From Parabacteroides chinchillae (GTDB taxonomy: Bacteria > Bacteroidota > Bacteroidia > Bacteroidales > Tannerellaceae), in contig NZ_FNVS01000022.1 in assembly GCF_900108035.1 (NCBI RefSeq), positions 1-55,376 on the forward strand: 55,376 nucleotides of DNA. The letters are read 5' to 3'. A model generated the notes under the pieces. The model was not told where the DNA came from, made no database searches, and saw only the letters and a program-made list of their open reading frames with translations. Positions 1 to 26,291 of the stretch are shown here, one piece after another. The position numbers and the translations under genes are program-made. How positions within the stretch are numbered: position 1 is the stretch's first letter; the number at the start of each line of letters is the position of its first letter.

Positions 1-1
1 A

Positions 2-1614: not shown

Positions 1615-1866
1615 ATGAAACTAAAGAAGTTAAAATTGAATGAAGTGGCAAGAGCTGAGTTGAATGAACGAAGTATGTGCCGTATTCTAGGAGGAGGAAC
1701 TCCCGGTTGTTGTCAGTGTAGTTGTGCGTACGAAGGCCAAGGTGGTTCTACCACAAGTGCGAATAGTGGTGCTAATAATGCCGGTGGATATACATCGGAC
1801 GGCTCTAATCCTTGCTGTGGAAATCCACCACATTGGTCTTGCGGAACTAACGGCTTCTGCTCTTGA
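1615..1866 (+). CDS. RiPP precursor peptide, double-glycine leader, Cys-rich core (precursor A)
   Basis: This 83-residue peptide has a Lys/Leu-rich amphipathic leader ending at LGGG (residues 25-28), the form cut by C39 peptidases. The predicted core of about 55 residues starts TPGCCQCSC and contains eight cysteines, with a Gly/Ser/Asn-rich middle (including NNAGGYTS) and a second cluster SNPCCGNPPHWSC. It belongs to the Bacteroidales GG-leader precursors paired with radical SAM maturases (TIGR04149-type, named from memory). It is followed by a hairpin and then by a protease-like gene, two radical SAM enzymes and a pseudo-rSAM gene on the same strand, all intact. It shares CCxCxC and AGGYxS with the second precursor at 8170. 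The final product and its modification are unknown. Confidence 0.85.
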   Translation: MKLKKLKLNEVARAELNERSMCRILGGGTPGCCQCSCAYEGQGGSTTSANSGANNAGGYTSDGSNPCCGNPPHWSCGTNGFCS

Positions 1867-1925
1867 TAAACTGTGTACATAGGTATCTTGTAAGGAAAAC
1901 TTGTGTGATTTGAAATTAACAAACC

Positions 1926-1961
1926 ACTGCACTACTATAGAAGTTATTCTAGTAGTGCAGT
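1926..1961 (+). terminator. Hairpin after precursor A (attenuator or RNA-stabilising stem)
   Basis: ACTGCACTACTA (1926-1937) pairs perfectly with TAGTAGTGCAGT (1950-1961) around a 12-base loop that can pair further. It lies 60 bp after the precursor stop and 24 bp before the next gene. There is no T-run after it, so it may act as a partial terminator or a 3' stabiliser that raises precursor mRNA above the downstream enzyme mRNA. Confidence 0.6.
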
Positions 1962-1984
1962 ATAAACCTATATAATCTGCCAGT

Positions 1985-3217
1985 ATGAATAAAATCCATA
2001 AAGCCATCTGTCACTCCGGCTTCGTTATTGCCCTTATAGCAGCAAGCATTTGTTGTACGAAACCTATGCAAGAGAGTTCCCCCAATCGGGTATCTTTTAT
2101 TATTGGTCCTAAAAGCTTAGTAATGGAATTACCGGTACATTTTAATGACAGTGTAACTGCAAATTTAATTTTTGATACAGGAGGAACTATATTTGAGTTG
2201 GATTCTTCTTTTTGTATAGCGCATCCCGCCATTATGCATTCATCGCCAGATGCAATATTACCAACAGGAACGGCATGGTCTAAAGGTAGTAGTGCACTAG
2301 CTTCGGCATATTATTCTGCTGCAATGACTATTCGCGTGGGAGAGACAAATCTTTTATTTAATAGAATGAATGTTTGGGATTGGAAAGGAACTATGTGCGA
2401 TTGTTCTGATGGATTGTTTCATATTCCACAAAATGATACAACACATATATGGGAACTGAATTTTGAACATAATTATATAGAGATTCATTCTGACTCAAAC
2501 TTCGTTATGCCGGAAAACTGCCAGACATTTCCTTTGACACGAGATCCACTTTCTCGGGTTTACGTTGACCTACCCCTGCAAGTGACCTTCTCAGATGGAG
2601 ATACTTTGACGCTTAACCGTAGATTTCTGATAGACACCGGTATGCATTGGGATGTGGTTCTGATTTCGGGAGTTCCGGAATTTGATTTTTTCAACAGCCG
2701 CCAAGATGCAGTCTGGGTACAAGAGCCCTATTATTTCCGGCGCTTTATTGTGAACGCTACCCTATCCAATCAGGTACAATTGGATTCATTGAGAATTCAT
2801 ACAGCCGACTTTCCTACTTCAATGCCTGGTCAATATTTGATAGGACTGAACTTTCTCAAAAGATTTAATGTCTATTTTGATTTGAAAAACAAGCAACTAG
2901 GCTTATTGCCAATCAAGAGCTTTCAGCGTATTTTCAATCCATTGTCCAAACGTTTTCACATGTCTTCCAACATGAATAAACAAGGAAAGTTTATTATTGA
3001 TAAAATAGCTGATTATGATGAGAATTATTGTAAGAAAGCGGGATTAAAGGAGGGGGATGAAATTATTGCTGTTAATGGGAAAGATATTAAAACATGTACT
3101 ACTGAAGAAAAGAAGGAATTACTACTGCAAGATACGCTTATGTATGATATCAATCGCCAAGGAAAGCGATTGAAAATAAAAGTGATTGTGGATAGGAGCG
3201 AGAATTTTGAACTCTGA
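1985..3217 (+). CDS. Retropepsin-like aspartyl protease with C-terminal PDZ domain, probable lipoprotein
   Basis: The protein has 410 residues. An N-terminal hydrophobic segment (FVIALIAASICC, about residues 13-24) ends in a cysteine pair, suggesting export and perhaps lipidation, though the lipobox is weak. Two aspartyl-protease signatures are visible, NLIFDTGGT (Asp64) and RFLIDTGM (Asp217), so one chain could form a pseudo-dimeric active site. A PDZ domain follows (about 340-405, GLKEGDEIIAVNG). The gene lies between precursor A and its maturases. By inference it could trim or bind the exported peptide in the periplasm, or handle unrelated envelope proteins. The family is widespread in Bacteroidota with few characterised members. 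Confidence 0.75.
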   Translation: MNKIHKAICHSGFVIALIAASICCTKPMQESSPNRVSFIIGPKSLVMELPVHFNDSVTANLIFDTGGTIFELDSSFCIAHPAIMHSSPDAILPTGTAWSKGSSALASAYYSAAMTIRVGETNLLFNRMNVWDWKGTMCDCSDGLFHIPQNDTTHIWELNFEHNYIEIHSDSNFVMPENCQTFPLTRDPLSRVYVDLPLQVTFSDGDTLTLNRRFLIDTGMHWDVVLISGVPEFDFFNSRQDAVWVQEPYYFRRFIVNATLSNQVQLDSLRIHTADFPTSMPGQYLIGLNFLKRFNVYFDLKNKQLGLLPIKSFQRIFNPLSKRFHMSSNMNKQGKFIIDKIADYDENYCKKAGLKEGDEIIAVNGKDIKTCTTEEKKELLLQDTLMYDINRQGKRLKIKVIVDRSENFEL

Positions 3218-3245
3218 TATATAAAGATAATTAAAAAGAAATAAC

Positions 3246-4565
3246 ATGAATGATAAAGTAAGCCGATACAACATTGAAATTGAATATCCTGAGGGGACTA
3301 TACTTTATAATACACTGTCTGATACTCTTTTGCCAATAGAAGCAAAAGAGTATGCTGTAATTGAAACTTTGATGGAGCATTTACCGACGTTTCAGGAAAA
3401 ATACCCGGACTTATATGCTGCATTCCAACAGTCTGGTTTCATTCTGCAATCTGATTTTGATGAACTGGCCTATCTCAAACTCCAGAATAGGCGAAGTGTG
3501 TATATGAATAGAAATTATCATCTTACGATAAATCCAACCTTAGATTGTAATCTGAAATGTTGGTATTGTTCGGTTGATTATGCCGGAACAAAACACGACA
3601 AAAACAGGATGAGTGATGAAGTGGTAGATCATTTATTAAAGCACATTCATTGGTTAGTAACTAAACATAAATCGAATTCAATACTGTTGGATTGGTTTGG
3701 AGGTGAACCATTGATGTATTTTAATGAAATAATAAAGAGTGTGTCAGATTTTGCATTGCCACTTGCACAGCAATATCAAGTTGACTTTAAGCAACAAATC
3801 ACAACTAATGCCACTTTATTGGATGAAAATAAAATTAAATATATGAAGGAGGCAAAATTTAATTTCATTCAAATATCTATTGATGGAAATGAACAGCGTC
3901 AAAATCTTATTAAGTGCTATGCCAATAAACGTGGTACATATAGAGATGTTATGAATAATATAAATTTGCTAACAGAATTGATTCCTGATATAGCAATTTG
4001 TTTACGTATAAATTATGATAGACAGACACTGAAGGACATAAAAGATATTATAAATGATTTTACAGAAAATAGTAGAAAATGTATTATGATTGATTTTCAG
4101 AAAGTGTGGCAGGTTTCATGCACAAATGAAACGCATAAATTATTGAAAGAAACAAGAGACTTATTTACAAAGTCCGGATTCAGATCTCGCATTTGGACCT
4201 ATACCCCTTTTCGTTACAAATGTTGCTATGCGGACAGTATTAATCATTATGTAATCAATTATAATGGTGAAATATTTAAATGTACAGCTCGTGACTATAA
4301 TGAAAAATTAATGATAGGGAACTTACAAAATGATGGATTGATAAGTTGGAATGATGGGATAATCAGTAAAATGTTTGCTAAGGCAACATTCGAAAATGAA
4401 TGTTGTGAGAAATGTCGAATATTACCCCTTTGCATGGGACCTTGTATTCAAAAAAACTACGAGGCACTTATTAATAATAATCAACCCACCTGTATATATG
4501 ACAATCCTGAATACTATTTGTCTTCTTATGTCTTAGAAAATGCAAAAAATAGAAATTTAATATAA
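3246..4565 (+). CDS. Radical SAM/SPASM peptide maturase (first of two)
   Basis: The protein has 439 residues. An N-terminal domain of about 90 residues (possibly peptide-recognising) precedes the radical SAM core with the SAM [4Fe-4S] motif CNLKCWYC (Cys101, 105, 108) and WFGGEP at about 150-155. The C-terminal SPASM region carries further cysteines for auxiliary clusters (KCCYAD, EIFKCTA, CCEKCRILPLCMGPC). This is the layout of enzymes that form thioether, C-C or epimer modifications on ribosomal peptides. Its stop overlaps the start of the next radical SAM gene by one base, so the two are co-translated. The likely substrate is precursor A at 1615. The chemistry cannot be read from the sequence. 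Confidence 0.88.
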   Translation: MNDKVSRYNIEIEYPEGTILYNTLSDTLLPIEAKEYAVIETLMEHLPTFQEKYPDLYAAFQQSGFILQSDFDELAYLKLQNRRSVYMNRNYHLTINPTLDCNLKCWYCSVDYAGTKHDKNRMSDEVVDHLLKHIHWLVTKHKSNSILLDWFGGEPLMYFNEIIKSVSDFALPLAQQYQVDFKQQITTNATLLDENKIKYMKEAKFNFIQISIDGNEQRQNLIKCYANKRGTYRDVMNNINLLTELIPDIAICLRINYDRQTLKDIKDIINDFTENSRKCIMIDFQKVWQVSCTNETHKLLKETRDLFTKSGFRSRIWTYTPFRYKCCYADSINHYVINYNGEIFKCTARDYNEKLMIGNLQNDGLISWNDGIISKMFAKATFENECCEKCRILPLCMGPCIQKNYEALINNNQPTCIYDNPEYYLSSYVLENAKNRNLI

Positions 4566-5812
4566 TGGATAACAAGTACTTAACAGCAGATGATGTCAAA
4601 TTTCAGTTAGCCAATCTGCGGCAATTAACGTTTGAGGTGACAGATGCTTGTAACTTATGCTGCAAATATTGCAACTATGGTGAGTTATATAATGACTATG
4701 ATAAGCGTAAGAATTTAAAAATAAGTTTACCTGCTTCTCTAAAATTGATAGATTATTTAACTTCTTACTGGAATTCTGATTATAATGTTTCTGCTAAGCG
4801 ATATACATATATAAGTTTTTATGGAGGAGAACCGTTATTGAATATGACATTTGTTAAATCGATAGTAGATTATATAGAGAAGCTTCCTTGCTCAAATCGT
4901 AGTTTTGTTTTCTCGATGACTTCTAATGCATTACTTCTTAATCAGTATATGGATTATCTGGTAGATCATGGTTTTAATTTACTTATTAGTTTAGATGGAG
5001 ATGAACACGCAACTTCTTATCGGGTAAATAAGACAGGTAAGGTTGTATATTCAGACATTATTAGGAATATAGAAATATTGCGTAAAAAATATCCAGAATA
5101 TTTCGAACACAAAGTGAATTTTAATGCAGTCTTACATAATCGGAATTCAGTCAGTAGTATTTACGAATTTTTTAAGACACATTATAATAAAACACCAAGT
5201 ATTGGCGAGTTGAATAATATGGGTGTAAGCCCAGATAAAATAAAATTATTTCAGGATACGTATCGCAATTCAGAGGAGAGCTTACATCAAGCTGAAAATT
5301 ATGAAGAAATAGAACAAGAGATGTTCTTGAAATCAGCGACCTATCAAACAGTGACGCATTTCATTCACCAATACAGTGGATATGTGTTTAGAAATTATTC
5401 AGACTTATTATATGGCAGAACAAACAAGAAAATTCCTACAGGTACCTGTCTTCCATTTAGTAAAAGAATGTTCGTTACTGTAAACGGTAAAATTTTACCG
5501 TGTGAGCGTATCGGACAGCATTTTGCATTGGGTAAAGTTTCGGATGACAGTGGCGTTGAGCTTGATTTTGAAATGATAGCTGATAGATATAATGCTTATT
5601 ATGCCAAATTAGCACCTCTATGTAAGAAGTGCCATAAAGCAGCATCTTGTATACAATGTCTTTTTAACCTTAAAGGGCTAGAGGATTCCCCCGTTTGCTA
5701 TGGATATATGGATAAGCATTCATTTGAAATGTATAAATCAAATCAAATAGCATTTTTACGTAAGCACCCGACAGATTATTATAGAATAATGGAAGAGGTC
5801 ATAACTGAATAA
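4565..5812 (+). CDS. Radical SAM/SPASM peptide maturase (second of two)
   Basis: The protein has 415 residues. It begins almost directly at the catalytic core: QLANLRQLTFEVTDACN, then Cys29, Cys33 and Cys36 in the CxxxCxxC motif, and FYGGEP at 85-90. It therefore lacks the roughly 90-residue N-terminal domain seen in the neighbouring maturase. The SPASM end has ILPCERIG and LCKKCHKAASCIQC. It is homologous to the broken maturase at 22349-23060, which shares FEVTxxCNL, GGEPLLNM and ILPCERI. It overlaps the previous gene by one base and is followed after 14 bp by the pseudo-rSAM gene. The family matches the GG-Bacteroidales radical SAM maturases (TIGR04148-type, from memory). Confidence 0.88.
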   Translation: MDNKYLTADDVKFQLANLRQLTFEVTDACNLCCKYCNYGELYNDYDKRKNLKISLPASLKLIDYLTSYWNSDYNVSAKRYTYISFYGGEPLLNMTFVKSIVDYIEKLPCSNRSFVFSMTSNALLLNQYMDYLVDHGFNLLISLDGDEHATSYRVNKTGKVVYSDIIRNIEILRKKYPEYFEHKVNFNAVLHNRNSVSSIYEFFKTHYNKTPSIGELNNMGVSPDKIKLFQDTYRNSEESLHQAENYEEIEQEMFLKSATYQTVTHFIHQYSGYVFRNYSDLLYGRTNKKIPTGTCLPFSKRMFVTVNGKILPCERIGQHFALGKVSDDSGVELDFEMIADRYNAYYAKLAPLCKKCHKAASCIQCLFNLKGLEDSPVCYGYMDKHSFEMYKSNQIAFLRKHPTDYYRIMEEVITE

Positions 5813-5826
5813 AAACAAAATGCAAC

Positions 5827-7065
5827 ATGTTTGATAAAGAAAAAAAATATTGGTTAGTTATTGCTCCTTATGTATACTGTTGTATCAAGAACAAACAAGC
5901 TTTGTTATATAATACTAAAAATGGGAAGTTTTTAGAGATTGAAAATAAAGCCATAATAGCTTTATTGCAGCAACTGCATAAAAAACAAAATCTTGGTACA
6001 GTTTATTGTAAAGGTAATAGGTTGGTAAAACCTGAGTACAAAGATTTCTTATGTTCTTTTTTGGCGAAAGAAATGGGGTATATTCAGGATATAATGGATT
6101 TTCCCGAAAGGCCTATACAAATGATGCCTATTCTAAATATTCAATGTGACGTTGATAAATTACAAAAAACAGAAGAGAGAGATGTGGGAGAAATGGTTCT
6201 ACTTTATTTGTCAGAATTGAATATTTACCTATATAATGTTTGTCATCATCATTGTGGTAACTGTAATAAGATTGCTAAACAAAAATTATGTTGCTATTTA
6301 AAAGAAAACGAACTATGTCAGGCTATTGACGTTACAGCATTAAAGCATATTTTTTCCCAAATTAAATACGCTCCAATAGGAAAGTTGAATTTATTTGGAG
6401 GTAATATATTTCAGTATCCACACTATGAAGCTTTACTACCTTTATTGACTCAATTCAAAGGAAAAATTCATATCTGGAGCCATTATTTGGACTTTGTGAA
6501 TAATGTGAATTTGAATCCGAACTTTATTTACAATATTATTGTACCTTTTCCTTTGGAAAAAGAGCAACTGTTATTATCCTCATCACTGTTAAATAGTTTA
6601 CAAATGAAAATTCATTTTTATGTTACTCAATATGATGAGTGTACAAAAGCCGAAGAGATAATAGATAAATATAAAATAGATGATTTCTCAATACATCCAG
6701 TATATATAGATACAAATTCGGACTTCTTTAAAGAATATGTCTATATGAGTAAGGATGATATTTTGCAGTTTAATACCTCGTTCAATCAAATTTTTATACA
6801 CCAAAATATGAATTCACATTTCTTTGGTTCGTTAACAATATCCGTGAATGGAGATGTAAGCGCAAATCTGAATAGTCCTGTTTTAGGAAATATCTATAAA
6901 GATGCTTTAGTTGATATAGTGAACAGAGAAATGATAGAAAATACAGCTTGGAGGAAAATTAGAGATAGTCAGCCTTGCTCAGACTGTTTGTTTCAATATC
7001 TTTGCCCTTCCCCTTCTAATTATGAGGTTGTTATTGGAAAGTCAAACTTATGCCATGTGAAGTAG
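5827..7065 (+). CDS. Pseudo-rSAM family partner protein that retains a CxxxCxxC motif
   Basis: The protein has 412 residues. Its ends match the pseudo-rSAM family of these loci (TIGR04150-type, from memory): an N-terminal region with YWLVIAPYVYCC, and a C-terminus WRKIRDSQPCSDC...LCPSPSNYE shared with the remnants at 14264 and 21819. In the remnant at 21819 the equivalent stretch reads LTFYMNGSEQG, with no cluster cysteines. Here it reads LNIYLYNVCHHHCGNC (Cys139, 143, 146), followed by NLFGGN in the place of GGEP. It may therefore bind a SAM cluster and be a true third radical enzyme, or be an intermediate on the way to a non-catalytic partner. It is the last gene of the intact cassette. Confidence 0.75.
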   Translation: MFDKEKKYWLVIAPYVYCCIKNKQALLYNTKNGKFLEIENKAIIALLQQLHKKQNLGTVYCKGNRLVKPEYKDFLCSFLAKEMGYIQDIMDFPERPIQMMPILNIQCDVDKLQKTEERDVGEMVLLYLSELNIYLYNVCHHHCGNCNKIAKQKLCCYLKENELCQAIDVTALKHIFSQIKYAPIGKLNLFGGNIFQYPHYEALLPLLTQFKGKIHIWSHYLDFVNNVNLNPNFIYNIIVPFPLEKEQLLLSSSLLNSLQMKIHFYVTQYDECTKAEEIIDKYKIDDFSIHPVYIDTNSDFFKEYVYMSKDDILQFNTSFNQIFIHQNMNSHFFGSLTISVNGDVSANLNSPVLGNIYKDALVDIVNREMIENTAWRKIRDSQPCSDCLFQYLCPSPSNYEVVIGKSNLCHVK

Positions 7066-7186: not shown

Positions 7187-7630
7187 AATCAAAACCCCAG
7201 CCCTTCACGAAACACTTTCTTCAGCGGCATGAAAAAACGTTCGATCAAACGAAGATCGTCTGTTACGATTTCTGCGGTAGCGGTCATTTCGTGTGAGACA
7301 GGAAGCGTTTTACCATAGTTGGTAGTAAGTCCTTTTGGGAAAGCAATTTCAATGGTATAATTGTTATCCGTAGGAACTAAAGAAATACTATTAACGGTTC
7401 CGTTCACAACTCCGAATTCCTGATCCGGATAGTTTGAAAAACGCACAATCACTCGTTGTCCGACTTTTACCTTACCCGAACGTGCTATGGGTAATAAGGC
7501 TTTTCCCATTAATAAATCGGAAGTGGCAGGCACTACTGTAAAAGCAGGGTCTCCCAATGGAATATACTGATTTTCATTCCAATATTTTGTAAATGTAACC
7601 TTGCCATCAATTGGGGAGGTAAGGCAATAA
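7187..7630. repeat. Left copy of a 444-bp direct repeat (HlyD gene 3' part)
   Basis: This block aligns without gaps to 10721-11164 (constant offset 3534), with about two dozen mismatches counted by eye, mostly silent. Similarity stops sharply at the GCAATAA near 7630. The two copies have the same orientation and bracket the second precursor cassette. Confidence 0.9.
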
Positions 7631-7641
7631 GGAAGACTCAA
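7189..7641 (-). pseudogene. C-terminal fragment of HlyD-family secretion accessory protein
   Basis: The open frame encodes 150 residues. From residue 5 on (YCLTSPIDGKV) it is nearly identical to the last third of the complete HlyD protein at 10723-12039. Only the beta-barrel/C-terminal half of the adaptor is present. The membrane anchor and coiled coil are missing and the first four residues (MSLP) come from junction DNA, so it cannot work as an adaptor. It points against the genes on both sides. It most likely arose by segmental duplication followed by deletion. Confidence 0.9.
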
Positions 7642-7696: not shown

Positions 7697-7909
7697 TTTT
7701 GGAAAAATTATCGATATAAAACAAGTGACTTTATTTTGAAACAAGGGAAAAATACAGTGGAGATAGCCAGCGATTTATGCAAAGGCCAATATACCGTACG
7801 AAATCAGATAAAATCGTTGTTTTCTAAATTAAAGGTTCACTCTATGCAAGAAGCTATCAAATTTGTTTGTTATCTCGAATGTCACATACAAAGAGAGAAT
7901 AAAACCTAA
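7697..7909 (+). pseudogene. LuxR-type HTH remnant (C-terminal end only)
   Basis: After an in-frame TAG at 7694-7696, this frame reads FWKNYRYKTSDFILKQGKN, then TVEIASDLCKGQYTVRN and IKSLFSKLKVHSMQEAIK to a TAA at 7907-7909. That is a LuxR/GerE helix-turn-helix without its first helix residues or any sensor domain. It corresponds to the end of the PAS-LuxR regulator at 25539-26291. It sits upstream of precursor B exactly where that regulator sits upstream of cassette 4, so it is best read as the decayed regulator of cassette 2. Confidence 0.75.
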
Positions 7910-8061
7910 CCCATAAATTATTGTCCCCTAATGGCAGTCTTTACTTATAAAAGTAGTTTAAATGAAAAATAAAATAGGCCTATTTAGGCTATTTTTAATT
8001 CCATGAAATGTGTTAATATTGTAAATATTTACATATCAAATAATTATTCACAAGACAAAAA

Positions 8062-8069
8062 TACTTTTG
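8062..8069 (+). promoter_or_regulatory. Putative -7 box upstream of precursor B
   Basis: TACTTTTG matches the Bacteroides -7 consensus TAnnTTTG. No good -33 TTTG at the usual spacing is visible, so support is partial. It would give a leader of about 90 bases before the precursor. The rest of the 7910-8169 gap is AT-rich with nothing else recognisable. Confidence 0.4.
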
Positions 8070-8169
8070 AGTTAGTCAAACAGTATTAAAATATTGCTTA
8101 TTATTACCATTCAATGATTGGTGATATTTTTATAATTGAGTGTTTAATTAAAAATAGGAGGATTTTATT

Positions 8170-8373
8170 ATGAAAAAGGTGAGTACTTTGAAGCTTTCTG
8201 TGTTAAGTCTCAATGATTTGGAAAAGAGAGAAATGAACAAACTTTTAGGAGGGGGGAATTGTTGTATCTGCACATGTGGTGTTATTTTAAGCACCTTGGA
8301 TACTGGTAATGCAGGAAATCAGTCAGGAGTTGTACATCCTGCAGGAGGTTATGGAAGTGGTTCTTTTGGTTAA
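8170..8373 (+). CDS. RiPP precursor peptide, double-glycine leader (precursor B)
   Basis: This 67-residue peptide has a textbook leader, LSLNDLEKREMNKLLGGG (12-29), for C39-peptidase cleavage after GG. The core begins NCCICTCG, with four cysteines in CCxCxC spacing, followed by a Cys-free Gly/Ser/Asn tail containing HPAGGYGSGS. The leader consensus is that of the Bacteroidales radical-SAM precursor family. An unusually purine-rich AGGAGG lies 8 bases before the ATG. A strong terminator follows, and then a beta-propeller lipoprotein. The maturase that once followed this cassette is reduced to a remnant at 9750. If B is still processed, it must use an enzyme encoded elsewhere, such as those of cassette 1. 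Confidence 0.9.
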   Translation: MKKVSTLKLSVLSLNDLEKREMNKLLGGGNCCICTCGVILSTLDTGNAGNQSGVVHPAGGYGSGSFG

Positions 8374-8381
8374 AATACGTG

Positions 8382-8426
8382 ATATAACTAAGGTTTATAA
8401 ACAATAAGTCTTAGTTATATTTTTTT
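8382..8426 (+). terminator. Intrinsic terminator after precursor B
   Basis: ATATAACTAAG (8382-8392) pairs with CTTAGTTATAT (8410-8420) and is followed directly by a run of T. It would stop most transcripts after the precursor and favour a high precursor-to-propeller ratio. Confidence 0.8.
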
Positions 8427-8521
8427 AAATTTAAGATAGTAATTGTATGGTAATTTCGTTCTTAAATTCCGATATGGTTGTTTTTTAATGTATCAACTAT
8501 TACTGTATTAACTAGTTGGAA

Positions 8522-9745: not shown

Positions 9746-9749
9746 AGAA

Positions 9750-9961
9750 ATGTTTATACGGACAAAAAATAGTAATCGATATTGGTTTTCAGAAAAAGAA
9801 AAACAATTTTTATATTACCCTGATATTCTAGAAAGAGGTAGTTATAAAAATAAGAAGGATAATTTTATGAAGTCAAATAATTTGGCAGAAGAAATTTTCC
9901 CAGATTTTATACTGAATTATGATTCTAATCGTCTTAAGGTAAATTTGGCAAATTTACGTAT
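9750..9961 (+). pseudogene. N-terminal remnant of a radical SAM maturase
   Basis: The frame opens 4 bp after the propeller stop, the place a maturase occupies in cassettes 3 and 4. It encodes about 70 residues of the non-catalytic N-terminal domain, starting IRTKNSNRYWFSEKEK, which resembles the start of the chimera at 14755. It ends in SNRLKVNLANLRML, matching the NLRQL stretch just before the SAM motif of the intact maturase at 4565. The catalytic core is absent. From about 9962 the DNA encodes a glycosyltransferase in another frame. The open frame runs on to 9992 by chance. Confidence 0.7.
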
Positions 9962-10720: not shown

Positions 10721-11164
10721 AATCACAACCCCAGCCCTTCCCTAAACACCTTCTTCAGCGGCATGAAGAAACGTTCGATCAAACGAAGATCATCTGTTAC
10801 GATTTCTGCGGTAGCGGTCATTTCGTGTGAGACAGGAAGGGTTTTACCATAGTTGGTAGTAAGTCCTTTTGGAAAAGCAACTTCAATGGTATAATTGTTA
10901 TCCGCAGGAACTAAAGAAATACTATTAACGGTTCCGTTCACGACTCCGAATTCCTGATCCGGATAGTTTGAAAAACGCACAATCACTCGTTGTCCGACTT
11001 TCACCTTACCCGAACGTGCTATAGGTAATAAAGCTTTTCCCATTAATAAATCGGAGGTGGCAGGTACTACTGTAAAAACAGGGTCTCCTAATGGAATATA
11101 CTGATTTTCATTCCAATATTTTGTAAACGTAACCTTGCCGTCTATTGGGGAGGTTAGGCAATAA
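10721..11164. repeat. Right copy of the 444-bp direct repeat
   Basis: This is the 3' part of the complete HlyD gene plus 2 bp beyond its stop. See the copy at 7187-7630: same orientation, no gaps and roughly 95% identity by eye. Confidence 0.9.
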
Positions 11165-17529: not shown

Positions 17530-17545
17530 ACCAACACGCTTTTAT

Positions 17546-18497: not shown

Positions 18498-18545
18498 AGA
18501 TATTATGAATCTAAAACTAACAACACGCACATAAACGCTTCTTGG

Positions 18546-18553
18546 CAAATATA
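18546..18553 (-). promoter_or_regulatory. Putative -7 box for the cassette 3 operon
   Basis: Read on the minus strand, 18553-18546 is TATATTTG, a match to TAnnTTTG. It lies about 50 bp before the ATG at 18497, which supports that start over the longer frame. No clear -33 TTTG is visible. Confidence 0.4.
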
Positions 18554-18849: not shown

Positions 18850-20247
18850 ATGAATTGTAAAATTAGCATAAACATGTCTGTCGTTGTTCCGGTATATAAT
18901 GTTGAAGAATATCTGCCGGCATGTATTGAATCTCTCCTGGATCAGGATATTTCCGTTGAAATCATTCTGATTAATGATGGTTCAACTGATGGTTCGGGAA
19001 TGATAGCCGACCAATATGCCAATCAAGACAAACGGATTAAAGTGATTCATCAGGAAAATGGAGGAGCCTCGGCTGCACGCAATGCGGGTTTGGAAATTGC
19101 ACAAGGAGAATACATCGCTTTTATTGATAGTGATGATTGGGTAAAGCAAAATTCGTTAGGTGAATTATACAGAGAAGCCACTAAACATCAAGCCGATATG
19201 GTAATGGGCAATATGCTGTTTTATTATCAAGACGGTAGCTTAAGTAACCCCAGTAATCCTGCCCCTAAAGACATTTGTAATATTCTACTTTCCGGCAAAG
19301 ATGGATTTGTAAAACTAGCAAAGGCCAACGTTTATTCATCCATGGCATGTAATTATATATATTGCAAGAAGTTTTTAGATAAAATACAGGCCAGGTTTGA
19401 GGAGGGTATTATGTGTGAAGATGAGTTGTGGAGTCCTGTCGTTTTTTATCAAGCTGAGAAGTTCCTGATTACTGATATTAATTTCTATTATTACCGTCAA
19501 AGGGAAGGATCTGTCATGCATGCATCGAGTCGCCGACAACGTATGAAAGCCTTGTTCCGGGTCGGCAATCGTTTAACAGAATTTGCCGGACACCTTGATT
19601 TTATGGGAGAAGACGGAGAGTTTAAAAATTGGTTATATGTTAATATATTTTGGATTTATTCTAAAGCATTCATGTTTCTTTCCCGGATAAAAGATACTTC
19701 ATACGTAGTACCTCAGTATCACTTAGATCGTTTTTGGCGGGATTGTTGGGAAATGATGCCCGAACCGCAAAAAAGATGTAAATATTATTATGATCTTGCG
19801 ATAGCAGACTTACAAAGATATACGAATTGGTGTACTTCCGAAGGGGTGGCATCTGTCGCTTATCAAATTAAATCAGGAAAGAAACTGATGTTGATATACA
19901 ATGCTGTACGCGGTGAAAATTTACATATAAAAAATGAAGTTATTCCGGCAAACTGGCTTATCACCACCGACCGACGCTATTTTCAACAAGCCGATGTTGT
20001 CGTGTTCTATCTTCCGGATTTAGCACAAGAGGTTGAAGGTGATTTAGACAAACCGGAAGATCAAATCTGGGTAGCCTGGCATTTGGAGGAGACAGAAAAG
20101 AACTATCCATGGGTTAATGATCCGGAATTTAAGGAGCTTTTCGACCTGCAAGTCTATTATCCTGAGGATGAAAAACAAGAAGAACATCCTGTGATTCAAT
20201 TATGCCGTGCAATAAATAATAAACTAGATAAAAACTATGAATCTTAA
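18850..20247 (+). CDS. GT2 glycosyltransferase with C-terminal fucosyltransferase-N-like domain
   Basis: The protein has 465 residues. Residues 1 to about 330 are a standard GT-A enzyme: VVVPVYNVEEYLPACIESL, INDGSTDGS, GGASAARNAG and the DXD-type FIDSDDW. From about 345 the chain changes to KLMLIYNAVRGENL and VVVFYLPDL, then QIWVAWHLEETEKNYPW and FDLQVYY. This resembles the N-terminal part of bacterial alpha-1,3-fucosyltransferases (GT10). The GDP-fucose-binding half is absent, so only an acceptor-side or scaffold role is plausible. Its end overlaps the next gene by 11 bp. Confidence 0.8.
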   Translation: MNCKISINMSVVVPVYNVEEYLPACIESLLDQDISVEIILINDGSTDGSGMIADQYANQDKRIKVIHQENGGASAARNAGLEIAQGEYIAFIDSDDWVKQNSLGELYREATKHQADMVMGNMLFYYQDGSLSNPSNPAPKDICNILLSGKDGFVKLAKANVYSSMACNYIYCKKFLDKIQARFEEGIMCEDELWSPVVFYQAEKFLITDINFYYYRQREGSVMHASSRRQRMKALFRVGNRLTEFAGHLDFMGEDGEFKNWLYVNIFWIYSKAFMFLSRIKDTSYVVPQYHLDRFWRDCWEMMPEPQKRCKYYYDLAIADLQRYTNWCTSEGVASVAYQIKSGKKLMLIYNAVRGENLHIKNEVIPANWLITTDRRYFQQADVVVFYLPDLAQEVEGDLDKPEDQIWVAWHLEETEKNYPWVNDPEFKELFDLQVYYPEDEKQEEHPVIQLCRAINNKLDKNYES

Positions 20248-21085
20248 ATTCTGGCACCCACACAGAGGACCCGGCAACTTTGGTGACGAATTGAATGTTT
20301 CTCTTTTCAATCGTCTGTTTGGCTCTGTATTTGAAATGGAGAAATACAAAGATGTTGACTTCTACGGAATAGGAACCATCATCAGACCTGATGTTGGGCA
20401 ACAAAATAAGTGTGCAATTTTTGGGTCGGGTGTTTGGGAAGTGGCACCGCGTTACGACAAGCAAAATTGGAATGTATTCTTTCTGCGAGGACCTGTTTCA
20501 TCTAACATTCTGGGATATGGTGGAGAAAAGTTTATTACGGATGCAGCCTATTCGCTTTTATTGTTGGATGACATGATACCCAGGCTTCCTAAAAAACATC
20601 CGGTTTCCGTGATGCCGCACATGTTGCAAATGCAACTGGTTGATTGGAAGTATATTTCTGAACAAACAGGTGTAAACATAATTGACCCGTATGCACCAGT
20701 AGATTTTATAATGGAAGAAATAGCCACATCGGAGAAAATCATATCGGCAGCCATGCACGGAGCTATTGTTGCAGATATTTGCAGGGTACCTTGGGCTCGT
20801 TTGAAAATGGAACTTCTTACATTAGATGAAACATTTTTTATCAATGAACTGAAATGGAGAGACTGGTTGTATTCTATGGGACTATCGGAAAAAAGTGTTG
20901 CAGTTTGGAATACGCATACACAATCCAATCATGGAGAGTATGGTTATATTCAAGACATAGCAAACACTCTACAACGAGAAATAAAAAACGGGCATACATT
21001 CCAGTTATCTTCGGATATTATACTGGGAAATAAAATTAATTGTATTGCCAATGAAGCCGACAGGTTCTTAAATTACTACAAATAA
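20237..21085 (+). CDS. Polysaccharide pyruvyl transferase-like protein
   Basis: The protein has 282 residues. It starts NLKFWHPHRGPGNFGDELN, the GNxGDE signature of the polysaccharide pyruvyl transferase family (PF04230). It then shows GIGTIIRPD, IFGSGVW and FFLRGPVSSNILG, and a C-terminal SAAMHGAIVADICRVPW, the usual serine/histidine motif of the nucleotide or phosphoenolpyruvate site. These enzymes add a pyruvate ketal to sugars of surface glycans, though distant members have other roles. It overlaps the upstream GT by 11 bp and is 6 bp before the next GT, forming a tight operon. Confidence 0.85.
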   Translation: MNLKFWHPHRGPGNFGDELNVSLFNRLFGSVFEMEKYKDVDFYGIGTIIRPDVGQQNKCAIFGSGVWEVAPRYDKQNWNVFFLRGPVSSNILGYGGEKFITDAAYSLLLLDDMIPRLPKKHPVSVMPHMLQMQLVDWKYISEQTGVNIIDPYAPVDFIMEEIATSEKIISAAMHGAIVADICRVPWARLKMELLTLDETFFINELKWRDWLYSMGLSEKSVAVWNTHTQSNHGEYGYIQDIANTLQREIKNGHTFQLSSDIILGNKINCIANEADRFLNYYK

Positions 21086-21091: not shown

Positions 21092-21802
21092 ATGAAAATA
21101 CCCAAAATCATCCATCAAATCTATGATAATCCGGCAGGTGTTCCCGATATTCTGTCTGACGTATCGGAATCATGGAAAAAAGAACATCCTGCATGGAACT
21201 ATCGTTTATGGGATCATGAAGCTATTCAAAAATTTCTGGAAGATAGTTGCCCTGAATTTATTCCGATTTATAAATCATTTCTTTGCAACAAACAAAGATG
21301 GGAGTTTATGCGTTATCTGATTTTATATCACGAAGGCGGCCTGTATGTTGACATGGATTACGAGTGTATTCAGCCTATGGACAGCCTTCTGGAAACACAT
21401 TCCTGTTGTTTGGCTCTTGAACCGGCGGAGCATGCCGAACGATTTGGCAAACAAGAATTAATAGGAAATGCAATGCTGGCAGCCATTCCTCATCATCCTT
21501 TTTTTGAAAAGATAATTGAACAAATTATTCTTTCAGGCAACGGAAGAAAACAAACTATGACATGGCACGATACTCAAAATGCCGGAATCGAGATGATTAA
21601 TAATTTGTATGAAGGATACGACTTCAAAGAAGAAATCACTTTACTCCCTGCAGATTTAGTAACACCTTTGTCTGCAAGAGAAATTTCTCTTTTATTGCTA
21701 AACAGGGAAACTCCGGAAATGGAGGATAAAGTGGAAAAAGCGTTTGCTGTACACTATTTCTTGGGGCAATGGAGGTTGAAATATGCGAGTGACATGGTTT
21801 AA
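21092..21802 (+). CDS. GT32-type glycosyltransferase (DXD, OCH1-like)
   Basis: The protein has 236 residues. It opens with IPKIIHQIYDNPAGVP and contains WRLWDHEAI-like spacing (YRLWDHEAIQKF), RWEFMRYLILYHEGGLYVDMDYE with the metal-binding DMD, and ALEPAEHAERFG. This is the sugar-binding DXD family (PF04488) that transfers hexoses to glycan acceptors. It is the last gene of the three-gene operon. It converges on the pseudo-rSAM pseudogene, whose end lies only 16 bp away, with no obvious terminator between them. Confidence 0.87.
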   Translation: MKIPKIIHQIYDNPAGVPDILSDVSESWKKEHPAWNYRLWDHEAIQKFLEDSCPEFIPIYKSFLCNKQRWEFMRYLILYHEGGLYVDMDYECIQPMDSLLETHSCCLALEPAEHAERFGKQELIGNAMLAAIPHHPFFEKIIEQIILSGNGRKQTMTWHDTQNAGIEMINNLYEGYDFKEEITLLPADLVTPLSAREISLLLLNRETPEMEDKVEKAFAVHYFLGQWRLKYASDMV

Positions 21803-21818: not shown

Positions 21819-22344
21819 TCTTGTTTTTCAAAATGGCAAAGATTAGGCCGCCTCAATACTATTTCATAGTTTGAAGGTGAGGGACGTTGCTCCTGACCGG
21901 ATAAATAGCTTGTTTAAAGTATTCATCATTTCCTTGTTCACTTCCATTCATGTAGAATGTCAACTCGTGAAGATTTTGAAGAATTTTGCCTTTGAATCCA
22001 AGTTTTTGCTGTTCTTCATAATATTTTCTATTATCCTGAACTTTTAAAATTGGTTTCAAAGAAACCGGCCTTTTATTAAACTCTACGTTAAGCGACAGAT
22101 ATCCGGCCTGCATATCTATTAATGAATGAATCCATTGATTAATTTCATCATCGTTGATAGCTTCATCTGTTAATCCAACAGTATATAAATTTTCTGTTTC
22201 CAGTAGTTGATGGCATATTTCCTTAATTTTATCAGATACAGGGAAAAGAAATCTTTTTTTATTTCCGGCATTATAGACTAATCCTGTATTGTCTTTCAAC
22301 CATAAAAAGGTATCACCGTATAGTGTAAACCAATGTTTATTCAT
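21819..22344 (-). pseudogene. Pseudo-rSAM gene with internal deletion and frameshift
   Basis: The start (MNKHWFTLYGDTFLWL) and first 140 residues are intact up to LHELTFYMNGSEQGNDEYF. This segment lacks the CxxxCxxC cysteines, as is normal for this family. The frame then closes at 21859 after VPHLQTMK. In the next frame the same DNA reads PSPSNYEIVLRRPNLCHF to a TGA at 21819-21821, the family C-terminus. About 200 residues between these points are missing compared with the protein at 5827. The gene starts 4 bp after the deleted maturase, keeping the ancestral order of cassette 4. Confidence 0.8.
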
Positions 22345-22348
22345 AATT

Positions 22349-23060
22349 CTACAATGTAAAACTAATTTCGTTTAATATTCTGTTGTAATAATGAGGATGC
22401 TCCCGGAGATAAGTGAAATTTTGCTCTTTCTCTTTATTGAATAGTTCCGGAGTATAGAAGTTGGGACAATCTGGATGTTGACTCCTTATGTTGTCAATAT
22501 GATACATACATTGATAGCAAAATTTACTGGCAGCGCAATTAAGACATCGATCTGACACTTTTGATAAATAATAATTGTGTCGTTCTGCAACATATTTATG
22601 ATCTAACTCTACAAAACTATCATGAACATAACCTACTTCAAAATCATGATCTATACGTTCGCAAGGTAATATGTTTATCCAGTAGCATTGCATTGGTCGT
22701 CATTGCATAGAAAATTTTTCGACTGACGATATTCGATTCTTCGATATAATTGATGATTTTTTTTATCAGAGGCATATTTAGTAATGGTTCACCTCCATAA
22801 AAACTCACAATAAGTGGTGAATTTGTTTCTGCTATATAGTTTTCTTTCCATAAACTAAGAAGATAGTCTATCATCAACTGAGCTTTCTTGAATGGTAAGT
22901 CCCGGTGTTTTCTTACATCGTATTTTTCGTATAGTCGTTCTGATAATCCGCAGTATTTGCATTTCAGATTACATTTTTCAGTAACCTCGAAAACTATATT
23001 TTTGAGATTAATCAAATTGTTTTTGATTACTTTTTCATCTATTAAGCCGATCGTTTTCAT
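22349..23060 (-). pseudogene. Radical SAM/SPASM maturase with large internal deletion
   Basis: The first frame (23060 down to about 22680) keeps FEVTEKCNLKCKYC (Cys30, 34, 37) and FYGGEPLLNM, and breaks off after TTNAMLLDK. A second frame from the same point reads INILPCERIDHDFEVGYV, then the SPASM cysteines (DRCLNCAASKFCYQC) to a stop at 22349. In the intact relative at 4565 these two points are about 200 residues apart. Loss of roughly 0.6 kb removed most of the barrel and shifted the frame. It lies 12 bp after the propeller gene. The SAM motif survives, but no folded enzyme is expected. Confidence 0.85.
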
Positions 23061-23072
23061 TATGCTTGTTTT

Positions 23073-24260
23073 TTATTGCTTGAATGTAAGAATCCTGACT
23101 ACCGGATTATCATCTTCCAGAAGTTTCTTTGCAACTTTCTCGCCATTACCTTTCAATCGTTTACCTTTGTAAGCATCTATAACTGATGATGCCTGAATCA
23201 GTTCGGCAGCCATGTTTTTTGCAATGGCAGGTGTTCCATTTGGCCCACCCCATCTTCCTTGTCTCCAAGATTTCGTTTCATATTCTGTATCCCAAATAGA
23301 TGCTTTATTTATTTCTCTGGTTCTAAAATCAAGCATAAACGAAGGAATTGGTCCTCCTCCTTTCGGATTAAAATCTAAAAGAAATGTACCTATCAGCATA
23401 AATTTGTCGGTTGTTAAAAAAGGAGTCCATATATTTCTGGGTTCATGGGCGTGGATTGATGGGGTACGGGTTAATAGAGGAATTAGTCCCTTGCTTGGAG
23501 ATAGTTGATACAGTGTGTCGGATGATATATCTGCAATTATTATATCTGAACCATAATGCATATTATGAGAGTAAGAAATTACAAAAGATCTCCACATGTT
23601 ATTCTCTAAATGTTGAGCAATTTTGTTTGAATATCTTTTCGAGAACTCTAAGTTCAATATGGAAATCAAACTGCCGTCCTTTTTGGACATAAGTCGGTAA
23701 GGGGCTTTTTTAGTCTTGTTCTCATGTCCGGGCTCTATAATTACTTCGTCATAGATAAGTAAAGATGTGTCATCATAGTTTAGAATTCGCATATCATTTT
23801 CAAACCCATTTATTTTTAAAGTTCGTTTGTATTCTCCCTTTAAAGAATAAACTTGTATGTATTGGGAACACACATAGATTTCCTCTTTTTTTTCATCTAA
23901 AATTGTCCCGTTTTTAATCCATGAATATTCCATGCCACTTTGACCTTTGTGGTTGAAGTGGGAGTATAGTTTTCCGGTGCTACGATCGAAAAGAAATATG
24001 TCGCCTAACTGAAGTTCGTGTACAAGGATATATTTATTGGTAACAGCAGAAAGCTTCGCTGCTCCACTCAATAAAATATCATCGGTTGTCTCCAATGGTA
24101 TATATTCAATATCTGCCATGTCTTGAAGACACATCTTTTTTTGAGGATAATCTTTTGAAAAATCAAATACAGGCAAGTTACTCACCTTTGATTGGGAATT
24201 TACTACTTGGCTTCCCAATAAAAAAAAGGATATTAGTAAGCTGAAATGTCTTGTTTTCAT
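23073..24260 (-). CDS. 6-bladed beta-propeller protein
   Basis: The protein has 395 residues with a cleavable signal peptide (SLLISFFLLGSQVVNSQ) rather than a lipobox, unlike the relatives at 8522 and 14759. Family features are LQDMADIEYIPLETTDD, FDRSTGKLY, FNHKGQSGMEYSW in place of GQGPGEY, and a C-terminal DNPVVRILTFKQ. It lies 9 bp after the frameshifted precursor and before the deleted maturase. It is one of only two complete genes in cassette 4, the other being the LuxR regulator. It was probably retained by chance or for a separate envelope role. Confidence 0.8.
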   Translation of the reverse strand: MKTRHFSLLISFFLLGSQVVNSQSKVSNLPVFDFSKDYPQKKMCLQDMADIEYIPLETTDDILLSGAAKLSAVTNKYILVHELQLGDIFLFDRSTGKLYSHFNHKGQSGMEYSWIKNGTILDEKKEEIYVCSQYIQVYSLKGEYKRTLKINGFENDMRILNYDDTSLLIYDEVIIEPGHENKTKKAPYRLMSKKDGSLISILNLEFSKRYSNKIAQHLENNMWRSFVISYSHNMHYGSDIIIADISSDTLYQLSPSKGLIPLLTRTPSIHAHEPRNIWTPFLTTDKFMLIGTFLLDFNPKGGGPIPSFMLDFRTREINKASIWDTEYETKSWRQGRWGGPNGTPAIAKNMAAELIQASSVIDAYKGKRLKGNGEKVAKKLLEDDNPVVRILTFKQ

Positions 24261-24269
24261 AGTATTTTA

Positions 24270-24534
24270 TTAAGCAATACATAAATATGACGCTCTCATA
24301 GCTGTGCTGTCTCTAGTAATAGTCCCCATCCCCATATCAGTTGAAGAATGTCCTGGTGTGATGGGACCTGTGCCGTCCCAACTAGTACAACCACAAGTAG
24401 AGCAAGTGCAATTGCATTGTGCCCCACCTTTTAAGATGTCCTGCTGTCTTGCATTTAACGCGTTTTCGCTAAGTTGACTTAATTTTAGTTTTTCAAGTTT
24501 TTTTATGTTCTTTGGATTTTAAATTAATACTCAT
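24270..24534 (-). pseudogene. RiPP precursor with homopolymer frameshift in the leader (precursor C)
   Basis: The minus-strand ATG at 24534 opens MSINLKSKEHKK and then stops because of an A7 run. With A6 the frame becomes KKLEKLKLSQLSENAL, then NARQQDILKGG, and the core AQCNCTCSTCGC with 36 more residues to a TAA at 24270-24272. The core has five cysteines right after GG in CxCxxCxC-like spacing, plus one near the end. The interval length (265) is one more than a multiple of three, as expected for one inserted base. It is either a dead gene or one switched off by slippage in A7. Confidence 0.72.
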
Positions 24535-24607
24535 TGAATGATACGTGATATGCGACAAAATTGAGCAAATAGAAAATATCATACAATAGGTGATTTCCCT
24601 ATATTTT

Positions 24608-25251
24608 TCATTCGTGAAGTTTATTTGTCAGTTCTTCTTTTGTTGAATTCCAAGTTTTATAATATTCATTCATTATTTTGGCTTCATAATAATCTGACCT
24701 GATTTTCCCGTTTTGATTTCTAGGATGCGTAAGATGGAATAAAACGCTTCCAACTGCATTTCCTTTACTTGAACTGGAATATATTAAATCCATTTTGGAT
24801 ATATTCTTTTTCAAAAAATCGATATTTCTATGGAGCAAATAATGATTTCTAAGAATCTCGGAAGTATCGAAACATCTGCCGTCATACGGAAATGCAAAAT
24901 CACAATTTCCTGTTCTGAGTTGATGTACCGCTTCTATAATTGGGGAATATTCCAAAATAATATCTGCCTCCCAGAGACCGATGATATCTGTATTTATCTG
25001 TTTTAGAATTGTATTCAGATGTTTGGTTCGGTGAAGTATCGGGTCTTTATCTTCTATAAATTGATAAGAGACGGTACTGTTAATCTGCTGTTTTAGTATT
25101 CCGTTGTTATAATACGAAACTTCTACCACAAGGATATTGGTATCAAAACCGGATTCCAGAATATCTAAGGCAAGCAGTAAATTCTCTAACCGGATTATCG
25201 AATCGATCCGGACAATAAAATAAAAGTAGTGTCTTTCAATTCGTATTTCAT
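24608..25251 (-). pseudogene. GT2-like glycosyltransferase, frameshifted and internally deleted
   Basis: The ancestral ATG is at 25251, in an ATGA overlap with the upstream LanC-like remnant. It reads MKYELKDTTFI and then loses frame in a T4 run near 25222. With T5 it would read FIVRIDSIIRLENLLLAL, matching the GT part at 17546-18497. The open part (25129-24608) keeps IIGLWEADIILEY and FAFPYDGRCFDTSE, but jumps from SSSSKGN to VGSVLFHLTHPR, missing the GGVFLANR region. Two defects make activity unlikely. Confidence 0.72.
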
Positions 25252-25530
25252 AAGAAGTATTTTTTTATATGTAACAGTACCAGATGCGCTCCAGGAAAAC
25301 CATCAAATAATCGGCTGTATTTACGAAAATAGAATTCTTTATTTTGTAGTGTATGCCATGCCTCCGAATTATTTATTCTAGCAAAGAATAATTGCGGGTT
25401 ATAGTCAAAGCTATATTCCGGATTTTTCATTTGAATATATATGGAAGACAAGCCATTCGTTATATAGATATCTTGATTTCCATGTTCTTTATTTGAAAAA
25501 GAGAAAGATACACAATCCCATTTTTCCAGA
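25248..25530 (-). pseudogene. LanC-like protein remnant
   Basis: Starting next to the regulator stop, one frame reads GLVSGKMGLCIFLFF and stops. The next frame continues SNKEHGNQDIYITNGL, then runs through about 70 residues to LFDGFPGAHLVLLHIKKYF, ending at 25248. GKMG near the N-terminus and a GxPGxxLVLL end are typical of Bacteroidota LanC-like proteins of about 400 residues. Here only the two ends remain, joined by a deletion and shifted by one base. Family assignment is from motif memory. The overlap with the next GT start (ATGA) shows they were one operon. Confidence 0.55.
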
Positions 25531-25538
25531 GACTAAAC

Positions 25539-26291
25539 CTATTGGATAGTTTCAGACTGAACAGAATAAGTATGATAGATCAGTCTGCGATTGGAAGCAT
25601 ATTGAATAGCTTGTTCTATGGTGTTTACTCCGAATTTGTCAAAAAGTGCACATCTTATGCTTTCTATTGTTTTATCAGATACACCCATTTTAACAGCCGT
25701 TTCTTTTAGTGAAAATCCTTGTTGGGCCCATACAAGCATTTCTTTTTGCCTTTTGCTCAATGGTGAAAATGGATAATGTGTCCATTCTTTTGTTTTAAAA
25801 GAGTAATTAGAGTGATCCAGATTCTTATAGTGTGCACATAGCTGATTATCTTGTTTTCGGATAACGGAAACGGATAGCATGCAAATTCCATATCGGAGTT
25901 GTTCATTCAACCATTGTGGTTTCAACTTTACGTATGTCATCAGATAATTGGACTTGTTGTCTGATGATAAAGAACTTTTCACTCGGAGTAAAAAAGAAAA
26001 ATAATTGATTTGATCTGCGAGCCATTCATTATTATTCAGACTCTGTAAAACAATATTATATATCTTTATTCCAAAAGATATATCGTTCGGGTGAATTATA
26101 TTTTTGAAAAAATCATAACCAAGATTTTTTGGTGTTTCTTGCGTGTAACCACATAAGATCAAGTCATGGTTTGGTATATATCGAAAATTCTTTTGCTCAA
26201 AATCAAGAATAACTAATGCTTCAGTTATCATGCTCGACAAAGTATCATATACAATAGACCATTCATTTGCGAAAATATTGGTTTGTTTCAT
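25539..26291 (-). CDS. PAS-like/LuxR-type transcriptional regulator
   Basis: The protein has 250 residues. The first 170 have a PAS-like pattern (LVILDFEQKNFRYIPNH, LCGYTQETPKNLGYDFF, IIHPNDISF). The C-terminus is a LuxR/GerE HTH (LSKRQKEMLVWAQQGFSL, KETAVKMGVSDKTIE, FDKFGVNTIEQAIQYASN). It heads the minus-strand cassette 4, directly before the LanC-like remnant. A truncated relative at 7697-7909 precedes precursor B, so such regulators look like part of the module. The ligand is unknown. An 18-bp palindrome lies 14 bp upstream. Confidence 0.85.
   Translation of the reverse strand: MKQTNIFANEWSIVYDTLSSMITEALVILDFEQKNFRYIPNHDLILCGYTQETPKNLGYDFFKNIIHPNDISFGIKIYNIVLQSLNNNEWLADQINYFSFLLRVKSSLSSDNKSNYLMTYVKLKPQWLNEQLRYGICMLSVSVIRKQDNQLCAHYKNLDHSNYSFKTKEWTHYPFSPLSKRQKEMLVWAQQGFSLKETAVKMGVSDKTIESIRCALFDKFGVNTIEQAIQYASNRRLIYHTYSVQSETIQ

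Follow-up and report, generated by a model that had tools for sequence, protein, structure and literature searches.

Several radical SAM peptide cassettes, mostly broken and probably of separate origin, in one genomic island of Parabacteroides chinchillae

Introduction

Contig NZ_FNVS01000022.1 of Parabacteroides chinchillae (assembly GCF_900108035.1) holds, side by side, several gene cassettes for a ribosomally synthesized and post-translationally modified peptide (RiPP) of the radical S-adenosylmethionine (SAM) type, most of them broken. They draw on the same parts: a precursor with a Gly-Gly (GG) motif, radical SAM maturases, a pseudo-radical-SAM protein, a propeller and glycosyltransferases. 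How did these cassettes come together in one genome, and does any of them still make a peptide? The window analysed here is this entire contig (C29; 55,376 bases), one of the 38 contigs of the 3.57 Mb genome (G000); all coordinates are window positions, and the island proteins were scanned with NCBIfam and Pfam profiles.

An AT-rich island with four TIGR04149 precursors occupies positions 1–27,202. It probably consists of several known Bacteroidales radical SAM RiPP cassettes, at least three of them of separate origin, most of which have since lost their maturases; cassette 1 would be the last producer, exporting its peptide through the exporter pair of cassette 3.

Results

Composition and lesions of the cassettes

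The initial annotation described four RiPP cassettes of one type, at different stages of decay. The four TIGR04149 precursors all score above the family cut-off (Table 1), with no further match in the genome at E ≤ 0.001, and a fifth, broken cassette has to be added on another contig. Decay has indeed proceeded differently, as the lesions vary from cassette to cassette and the maturase is intact in cassette 1 only. In the window, TIGR04148 is present intact once and split once, TIGR04150 intact once and partial twice, and TIGR04157 intact once and partial once. Counting the fifth cassette, TIGR04150 is partial in cassettes 3, 4 and 5, while TIGR04148 is broken in 4 and 5 and reduced to amino-terminal stumps in 2 and 3.

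Cassette 1 (1–7065) has its precursor, PDZ protein, SPASM maturase, TIGR04148 maturase and TIGR04150 protein all intact; with a precursor, two maturases and their pseudo-radical-SAM partner, it is the sole cassette that looks complete for modification, as originally stated. It contains no propeller, LuxR or LanC gene. The recurrence of parts claimed for the island thus holds for precursors, maturases, pseudo-radical-SAM proteins and glycosyltransferases, but cassette 1 has the PDZ protein in place of a propeller. LuxR genes amount to one intact copy (25539–26291) and one remnant (7697–7909), with none in cassette 1. The LanC-like protein had to be abandoned: no PF05147 match was found at E ≤ 1 across the whole genome, in a scan that a short fragment could escape. 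The lipobox and the D-[TS]-G motifs of the PDZ protein were recognised by eye, and the latter make it a candidate aspartyl protease. Its structure model has a mean predicted local distance difference test score of 36, and only the PDZ part, above 70, is usable. The database cluster of the cassette 1 maturase lists 4 members and 1 contig.

In cassette 2 (7697–10582), the rest of the maturase and the pseudo-radical-SAM gene have been deleted between a maturase stump, which matches the amino-termini of four of the six full-length maturases tried, and half of a TIGR04157 gene. Cassette 3 (10723–18548) includes the exporter and its HlyD-type adaptor; its precursor gene lacks a start in frame ahead of the leader and meets a stop two residues past the GG, and the amino-terminal region of its maturase is fused in frame to the end of the pseudo-radical-SAM protein. 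Cassette 4 (21859–26291) retains an intact propeller and LuxR gene, and its maturase lacks the middle.

The fifth cassette lies on contig C3 (L107; 7,173 bases), which begins and ends within open frames. It contains a second copy of the GT2 gene, with 83% DNA identity over window positions 1–1233, and, in the precursor position, a gene for a GG peptide that matches no NCBIfam model at E ≤ 1. The maturase is in two frames, the second part running into the carboxy-terminus of the pseudo-radical-SAM protein, and of the two propellers one is open and one broken. The C3 cassette probably belongs to the same island; both C3 and C29 terminate within or close to repeated genes.

Different origins of three maturases

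For cassettes 1, 4 and 5, the maturases were placed in a tree with 34 foreign rows (37 rows in all), built on residues 10–130 in cassette 1 numbering. A single clade of the three was rejected (approximately unbiased test, p-AU 2.4e-91), and they therefore have separate histories. Over the same residues their mutual identity is 43–47%, while the nearest foreign maturases are 75% identical for cassette 1 (a Bacteroides fragilis protein) and 83% for cassette 4 (database cluster P0129); the cassette 5 maturase reaches at best 51% to any row of the tree. Apart from the HlyD and GT2 copies, the DNA matches found at E ≤ 1e-5 are no longer than 63 bases.

The exporter and a duplicated adaptor tail

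The statement that only cassette 3 keeps an exporter stood up, the only intact one adjoining that cassette, where an HlyD-type adaptor and a peptidase-containing ATP-binding cassette (ABC) exporter are both intact (10723–14279). Residues 16–739 of the exporter, peptidase domain included, match a solved "ABC-type bacteriocin transporter" (4ry2, which we take to be PCAT1). No other HlyD of this family was found in the genome besides a truncated tail. Tail and adaptor gene form a direct repeat of 445 bases with 95% identity (7187–7631 and 10721–11165), in the same orientation, flanking 3 kb that contain cassette 2; recombination between the copies could remove this piece, or could have inserted it. 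Eighteen of the 22 differences between the copies are synonymous, against 24–29% expected without constraint (p 1e-8 to 4e-7), so both copies must have been under selection for most of their divergence. For the greater part of the time since the copies separated, the tail therefore belonged to a functional adaptor, and its truncation is a late event.

Orphan carboxy-terminal HlyD tails also occur in five other genomes (G029:C29:14816-15379, G020:C105:10079-10297, G025:C333:539-727, G009:C94:14648-14785 and G001:C69:8423-8602) and look like scars of lost exporter loci. The stretches fetched around them contain genes of the system in two cases, a precursor in G029 and an exporter scrap in G009. 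We also considered HlyD tails as a general cassette border or mechanism, and rejected this because three of the five tails have no system genes in the stretches fetched. Other HlyD hits in the genus are contig ends (G023:C85 and G020:C124) or an amino-terminal scrap (G016:C121).

Other genes of the island

Table 1. Features of the island and its right edge, in window positions. Scores are profile scores, with the family cut-off where given.
Position	Strand	Feature	Score or remark
17–1399	+	GT2 glycosyltransferase, SunS-like (weak)	start lost at contig end
1615–1866	+	Cassette 1 precursor, TIGR04149, Cys-rich core after GG	intact; 46.5 bits, cut-off 25
1985–3217	+	Cassette 1 PDZ protein, two D-[TS]-G motifs, lipobox-like start	candidate surface protease
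3246–4565	+	Second radical SAM/SPASM maturase	nearest TIGR04463/Clo7bot/CefB models, below their cut-offs
4565–5812	+	Cassette 1 maturase, TIGR04148	intact; 565.9 bits, cut-off 300
5827–7065	+	Cassette 1 pseudo-radical-SAM protein, TIGR04150	intact; 440.8 bits, cut-off 250
7189–7641	-	Truncated HlyD tail	95% DNA identity to HlyD
7697–7909	+	Cassette 2 LuxR-type regulator	remnant (helix-turn-helix part)
8170–8373	+	Cassette 2 precursor, TIGR04149	intact; 45.0 bits
8516–9745	+	Cassette 2 propeller, DUF5128, lipobox-like start	intact
9750–9992	+	Cassette 2 stump, TIGR04148-type maturase amino-terminal region	cut at deletion junction
9974–10582	+	TIGR04157 glycosyltransferase, carboxy-terminal half	far side of deletion junction
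10723–12039	-	HlyD-type adaptor	intact
12039–14279	-	Peptidase-containing ABC exporter	intact
14264–14755	-	Cassette 3 chimera, maturase amino-terminal region and pseudo-radical-SAM carboxy-terminus	fused in frame
14759–16006	-	Cassette 3 propeller, DUF5128, lipobox-like start	intact
16120–16248	-	Cassette 3 precursor, TIGR04149	dead; 32.4 bits
16249–17529	-	Cassette 3 TIGR04157 glycosyltransferase	intact; 417.5 bits, cut-off 400
17598–18548	-	Cassette 3 frame with 3' end out of frame	glycosyltransferase-like by eye only
18850–20247	+	GT2 glycosyltransferase	fucosyltransferase-type amino-terminal domain match
20237–21085	+	Polysaccharide pyruvyl transferase match	weak, below cut-off
21092–21802	+	DXD glycosyltransferase (PF04488)	
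21859–22344	-	Cassette 4 pseudo-radical-SAM protein, TIGR04150	amino-terminal fragment
22349–22699	-	Cassette 4 maturase, TIGR04148	carboxy-terminal piece
22644–23060	-	Cassette 4 maturase, TIGR04148	amino-terminal piece
23073–24260	-	Cassette 4 propeller, DUF5128	intact
24270–24518	-	Cassette 4 precursor, TIGR04149	no ATG/GTG/TTG in frame before core; 40.1 bits
24608–25264	-	Gene adjoining this system in other genomes too	glycosyltransferase-like by eye
25248–25532	-	Small open reading frame	pairs with 24608–25264 gene in other genomes
25539–26291	-	LuxR-type regulator	intact, only intact LuxR of island
26390–27202	-	Stand-alone radical SAM protein, outside the four cassettes	last gene before tRNA-Trp, after LuxR gene
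27639–27712	+	tRNA-Trp	right edge of island

Three open genes of sugar-transfer type lie on the forward strand between cassettes 3 and 4. The frame at 17598–18548 is related to the product of 24608–25264 (E 1e-16), and its amino-terminal stretch matched no named family; for neither product did the NCBIfam and Pfam scans give a match that would name its family.

Genomic site and occurrence in the genus

The G+C content per 2 kb block is 29–40% in the island up to tRNA-Trp and 38–46% to the right of it. The island is cut at window position 1 by the contig end, its true left border lying off contig C29. A join C31-C3-C29 was considered for the left end and was not established: C31 from position 36000 to its end gives one weak match of glycosyltransferase level and no other island gene. 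That contig carries tRNA-Phe/Pro at C31:47085-47413 and a DNA-repair-type radical SAM gene at C31:63744-65000. No integrase is found among the island proteins scanned, the island lying 5' of tRNA-Trp with its left end off the contig.

A comparison of the tRNA-Trp site across relatives, proposed from the start, could be made with the flanking gene 27928–29514, present in all 38 genomes of the genus, which are one per species. Up to 18 kb upstream of it were fetched for 20 of the 37 other genomes, and in none of the 20 were island genes found there (hits above 60 bits); in three, there are weak matches of ABC-ATPase level only. The tRNA-Trp is directly upstream of the flanking gene in six of the 20. 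The gap from tRNA-Pro to tRNA-Trp beside this gene measures 157 bases, 236 bases, 1.5 kb and 11.6 kb in four species (L054, L060, L050 and L049), so the region around tRNA-Trp varies between species and is compact in some.

Of the 38 genus genomes, 12 have TIGR04149 matches, this one included. In the 11 others they are on other contigs than the flanking gene, which in fragmented genomes does not prove distance, or far away on the same contig (at a distance of 178 kb in G013 and of at least 0.86 Mb in G003); six of the 11 are among the 20 sites read (G003, G004, G012, G013, G018 and G028). Comparable arrays are present at other sites, such as one of five precursors and one intact exporter in G013 (contig C1). 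Our scan of named genomes for the system gave one locus only, and viral contigs gave no match in a scan that reaches close relatives only. Plasmid carriage was considered and rejected, as the 82 matching plasmid records are all below 60% identity; among the 10 listed, the best from Bacteroidales are an unannotated 5.7 kb record and a ruvB-bearing one that is probably chromosomal.

Intactness of the genes elsewhere

In its present form, the amino-terminal maturase fragment of cassette 4 is confined to this contig (a cluster of 1 member and 1 contig). The most similar sequences, P0129 (85% identity over 82% of the length, in 3 contigs) and P0131 (81% identity over 80%), have other end points. 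That of P0131 may be due either to a mutation or to a contig end, while P0129 departs from the shared frame before it stops. It does so near an A-rich run at which the window copy (22647–23060) stays in frame. The meaning of contig numbers in the database clusters is not fully clear, and no presence or absence was drawn from them.

In a census by stop-to-stop length thresholds, pseudo-radical-SAM genes are intact in 16 of 18 copies elsewhere versus one of four here, and propellers in 40 of 42 versus four of five. The thresholds alone make the G018 HlyD (317 residues) count as broken. Among the radical SAM genes tallied as intact, SPASM-type relatives account for two of the 19 elsewhere and also enter the tally of two here, and a Bacteroides faecalis maturase is miscounted as intact; the maturase comparison below accordingly uses 16 genus copies measured from ATG.

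Precursors and their lipoprotein-like partners

Thirty-six precursors were considered, namely 35 of the 36 TIGR04149 matches and the C3 peptide. The gene directly downstream encodes a propeller or PDZ protein in 20 cases (called by a match to an island one at E ≤ 0.01, in one case just 0.008) and a maturase in 10, leaving six with something else or nothing. For 19 pairs, the similarity of partners correlates with that of cores at 0.21 (p 0.07) and with that of leaders at 0.39 (p 0.007). For core-specific pairing of precursor and lipoprotein there is thus no signal beyond leader similarity (partial Mantel -0.06, p 0.65). In comparisons between genomes, propellers are nevertheless more alike where the cores are more alike (Spearman 0.34, nominal p 0.0003, over 105 pairs that are not independent). 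Within cassettes 1–5, the lipoprotein-like partner is open in five of five and TIGR04148 intact in one of five (Fisher p 0.048) if the propeller after the pseudo-radical-SAM gene is taken for cassette 5; counting its broken upstream propeller instead gives four of five versus one of five (p 0.21).

Discussion

Under the explanation that we favour, deletions and frame losses would have deprived most cassettes of their maturases, leaving cassette 1, presumably expressed, as most likely the sole remaining producer. Its Cys-rich precursor would be bound through the leader, the two radical SAM maturases and their pseudo-radical-SAM partner would modify the core, and sugars may be added to it. The exporter-HlyD pair beside cassette 3 would then cut after the GG and export the cassette 1 peptide, in a presumed sharing between cassettes, through an outer-membrane channel assumed to be encoded elsewhere. 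The product may act on competitors.

Several observations weigh against this account. Cassettes 2 and 3, their maturases gone, cannot be placed in the tree, so a joint arrival of some cassettes is possible; of the foreign rows, the B. faecalis locus and 17 database proteins entered the tree through queries with cassettes 1 and 4, which favours separation, although the 16 rows from the genus were gathered independently of these queries. Database cluster P0001 (3 members, 7 contigs, the longest 131 kb) contains the cassette 3 chimera at 99% identity, and the chimera is therefore not private to this assembly; in this one gene, the breakage is of the fixed sort that the initial annotation had named as its own refutation. 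TIGR04148-type maturases are open in all 16 other copies fetched from the genus (418–516 codons from ATG) versus intact in one of the five cassettes here (Fisher p 0.0008, the cassettes not being independent), which makes decay a property of this genome and not of such arrays in general, and constant turnover is not the rule in the genus. Maturase breakage is not confined to this genome either, since the Bacteroides faecalis KCTC 15687 copy (L110 10001-11205) is split in two frames of 410 and 154 codons. The chimera and the maturase count would suit an island that is an old relic, a fixed and mostly dead scar in the species, with cassette 1 intact by chance. This overlaps with our preferred explanation, from which it differs in holding turnover to have ended, and we regard it as possible but doubtful: the exporter, the five genes of cassette 1, three propellers, the three forward glycosyltransferase-type genes and a LuxR gene remain intact, truncation came late to the HlyD tail, and the cassette 4 maturase fragment is confined to this contig, its kin (85% and 81%) ending elsewhere, perhaps at contig ends. 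The history of repeated gain and loss suggested at the outset is thus supported at species level by the separate maturase ancestry, the differing lesions, the late HlyD truncation and the absence of island genes from the site in the 20 relatives read, while the chimera in the 7-contig cluster and the intact maturases elsewhere count against it.

Repeated copying of one cassette in place, followed by divergence, would account for the likeness in gene families and order and for the two genuine repeats at DNA level, those of the HlyD tail and of GT2. It is highly improbable given the maturases, which resemble each other much less than those of cassettes 1 and 4 resemble foreign ones (cassette 5 reaching 51%) and whose single clade is rejected, and given the shortness of all other DNA matches. 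The broken cassettes might instead retain working parts, the chimera and the lipoproteins serving, for instance, an orphan leader-binding or immunity function after production was shed. That the frame of the chimera has stayed open, with 99% identity in the 7-contig cluster, that partners are open in all five cassettes and TIGR04148 is intact in one, and that cores and propellers change together between genomes all point this way; yet the excess of open partners loses its significance with the broken cassette 5 propeller counted, and the core-partner correlation vanishes given leader similarity, in both cases on small numbers, and we hold such a function to be unlikely. Quite unlikely, too, is the more specific proposal of a shift from producer to resistant bystander, in which maturases were deleted repeatedly, precursor-paired lipoproteins kept as immunity proteins or receptors, and in-frame chimeras kept as leader binders.

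The TIGR04148, TIGR04149 and TIGR04150 families were reportedly first described by Haft and Basu in 2011. The available text of PMC4573289 describes such a system in Bacteroides uniformis ATCC 8492, likewise with precursor, maturase and pseudo-radical-SAM families, a bacteriocin-type exporter and a hemolysin-secretion-type protein; unlike that cluster, the present island has four or five cassettes, mostly broken, with glycosyltransferases and paired propellers. The same text records, in B. fragilis 3_1_12, a TIGR04149 precursor followed by a putative lipoprotein and a pair of radical SAM proteins that includes TIGR04150, so that a lipoprotein gene right after such a precursor is already on record; this cluster differs in having four genes, with a TIGR04085 maturase named and, in that text, no exporter. 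BGC5, linked to B. fragilis in the accessible part of PMC10352776, has the parts of cassette 1 and likewise misses an exporter, but has two precursors and three LanC-like genes, against a single precursor and no LanC-like match in cassette 1; for the curated clusters of that paper, the same part reports that no known immunity proteins were recognised. Parabacteroides distasonis NZ_OY725758.1 encodes in one run a LuxR regulator, a TIGR04149 precursor, a radical SAM peptide maturase, TIGR04150, a propeller, TIGR04157, a further glycosyltransferase, propellers and a peptidase ABC transporter. Cassettes 3 and 4 resemble disrupted forms of this layout, which differs in being annotated as intact, with a single precursor and a maturase just 32% identical to that of cassette 1. 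The record (L126) is called plasmid 13 of P. distasonis; it has ruvB and is probably a chromosomal piece. Bacteroides graspetide loci, as presented in the excerpts of PMC8939145, likewise have several diverse GG precursors beside a SPASM maturase; in contrast to them, no ATP-grasp ligase is among the island proteins scanned.

A literature search, covering the best-ranked matches outside subscription papers, returned no decaying multi-cassette island of this type and no propellers as immunity proteins, nor did we find in the literature a product or function of this gut RiPP family. The gene family and a cassette-1-like architecture are already published, and the island is mainly a clear example of cluster gain and loss. 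If the bystander proposal were true, the DUF5128 propellers and PDZ proteins would be the immunity proteins still missing for the RiPPs of Bacteroidales. The island amounts to a natural deletion set, since one cassette is apparently complete while several others have intact propellers but no maturase. It points to cassette 1 with the cassette 3 exporter as a minimal system, and it marks the lipoprotein-like genes paired with precursors as candidates for a role in immunity or processing.

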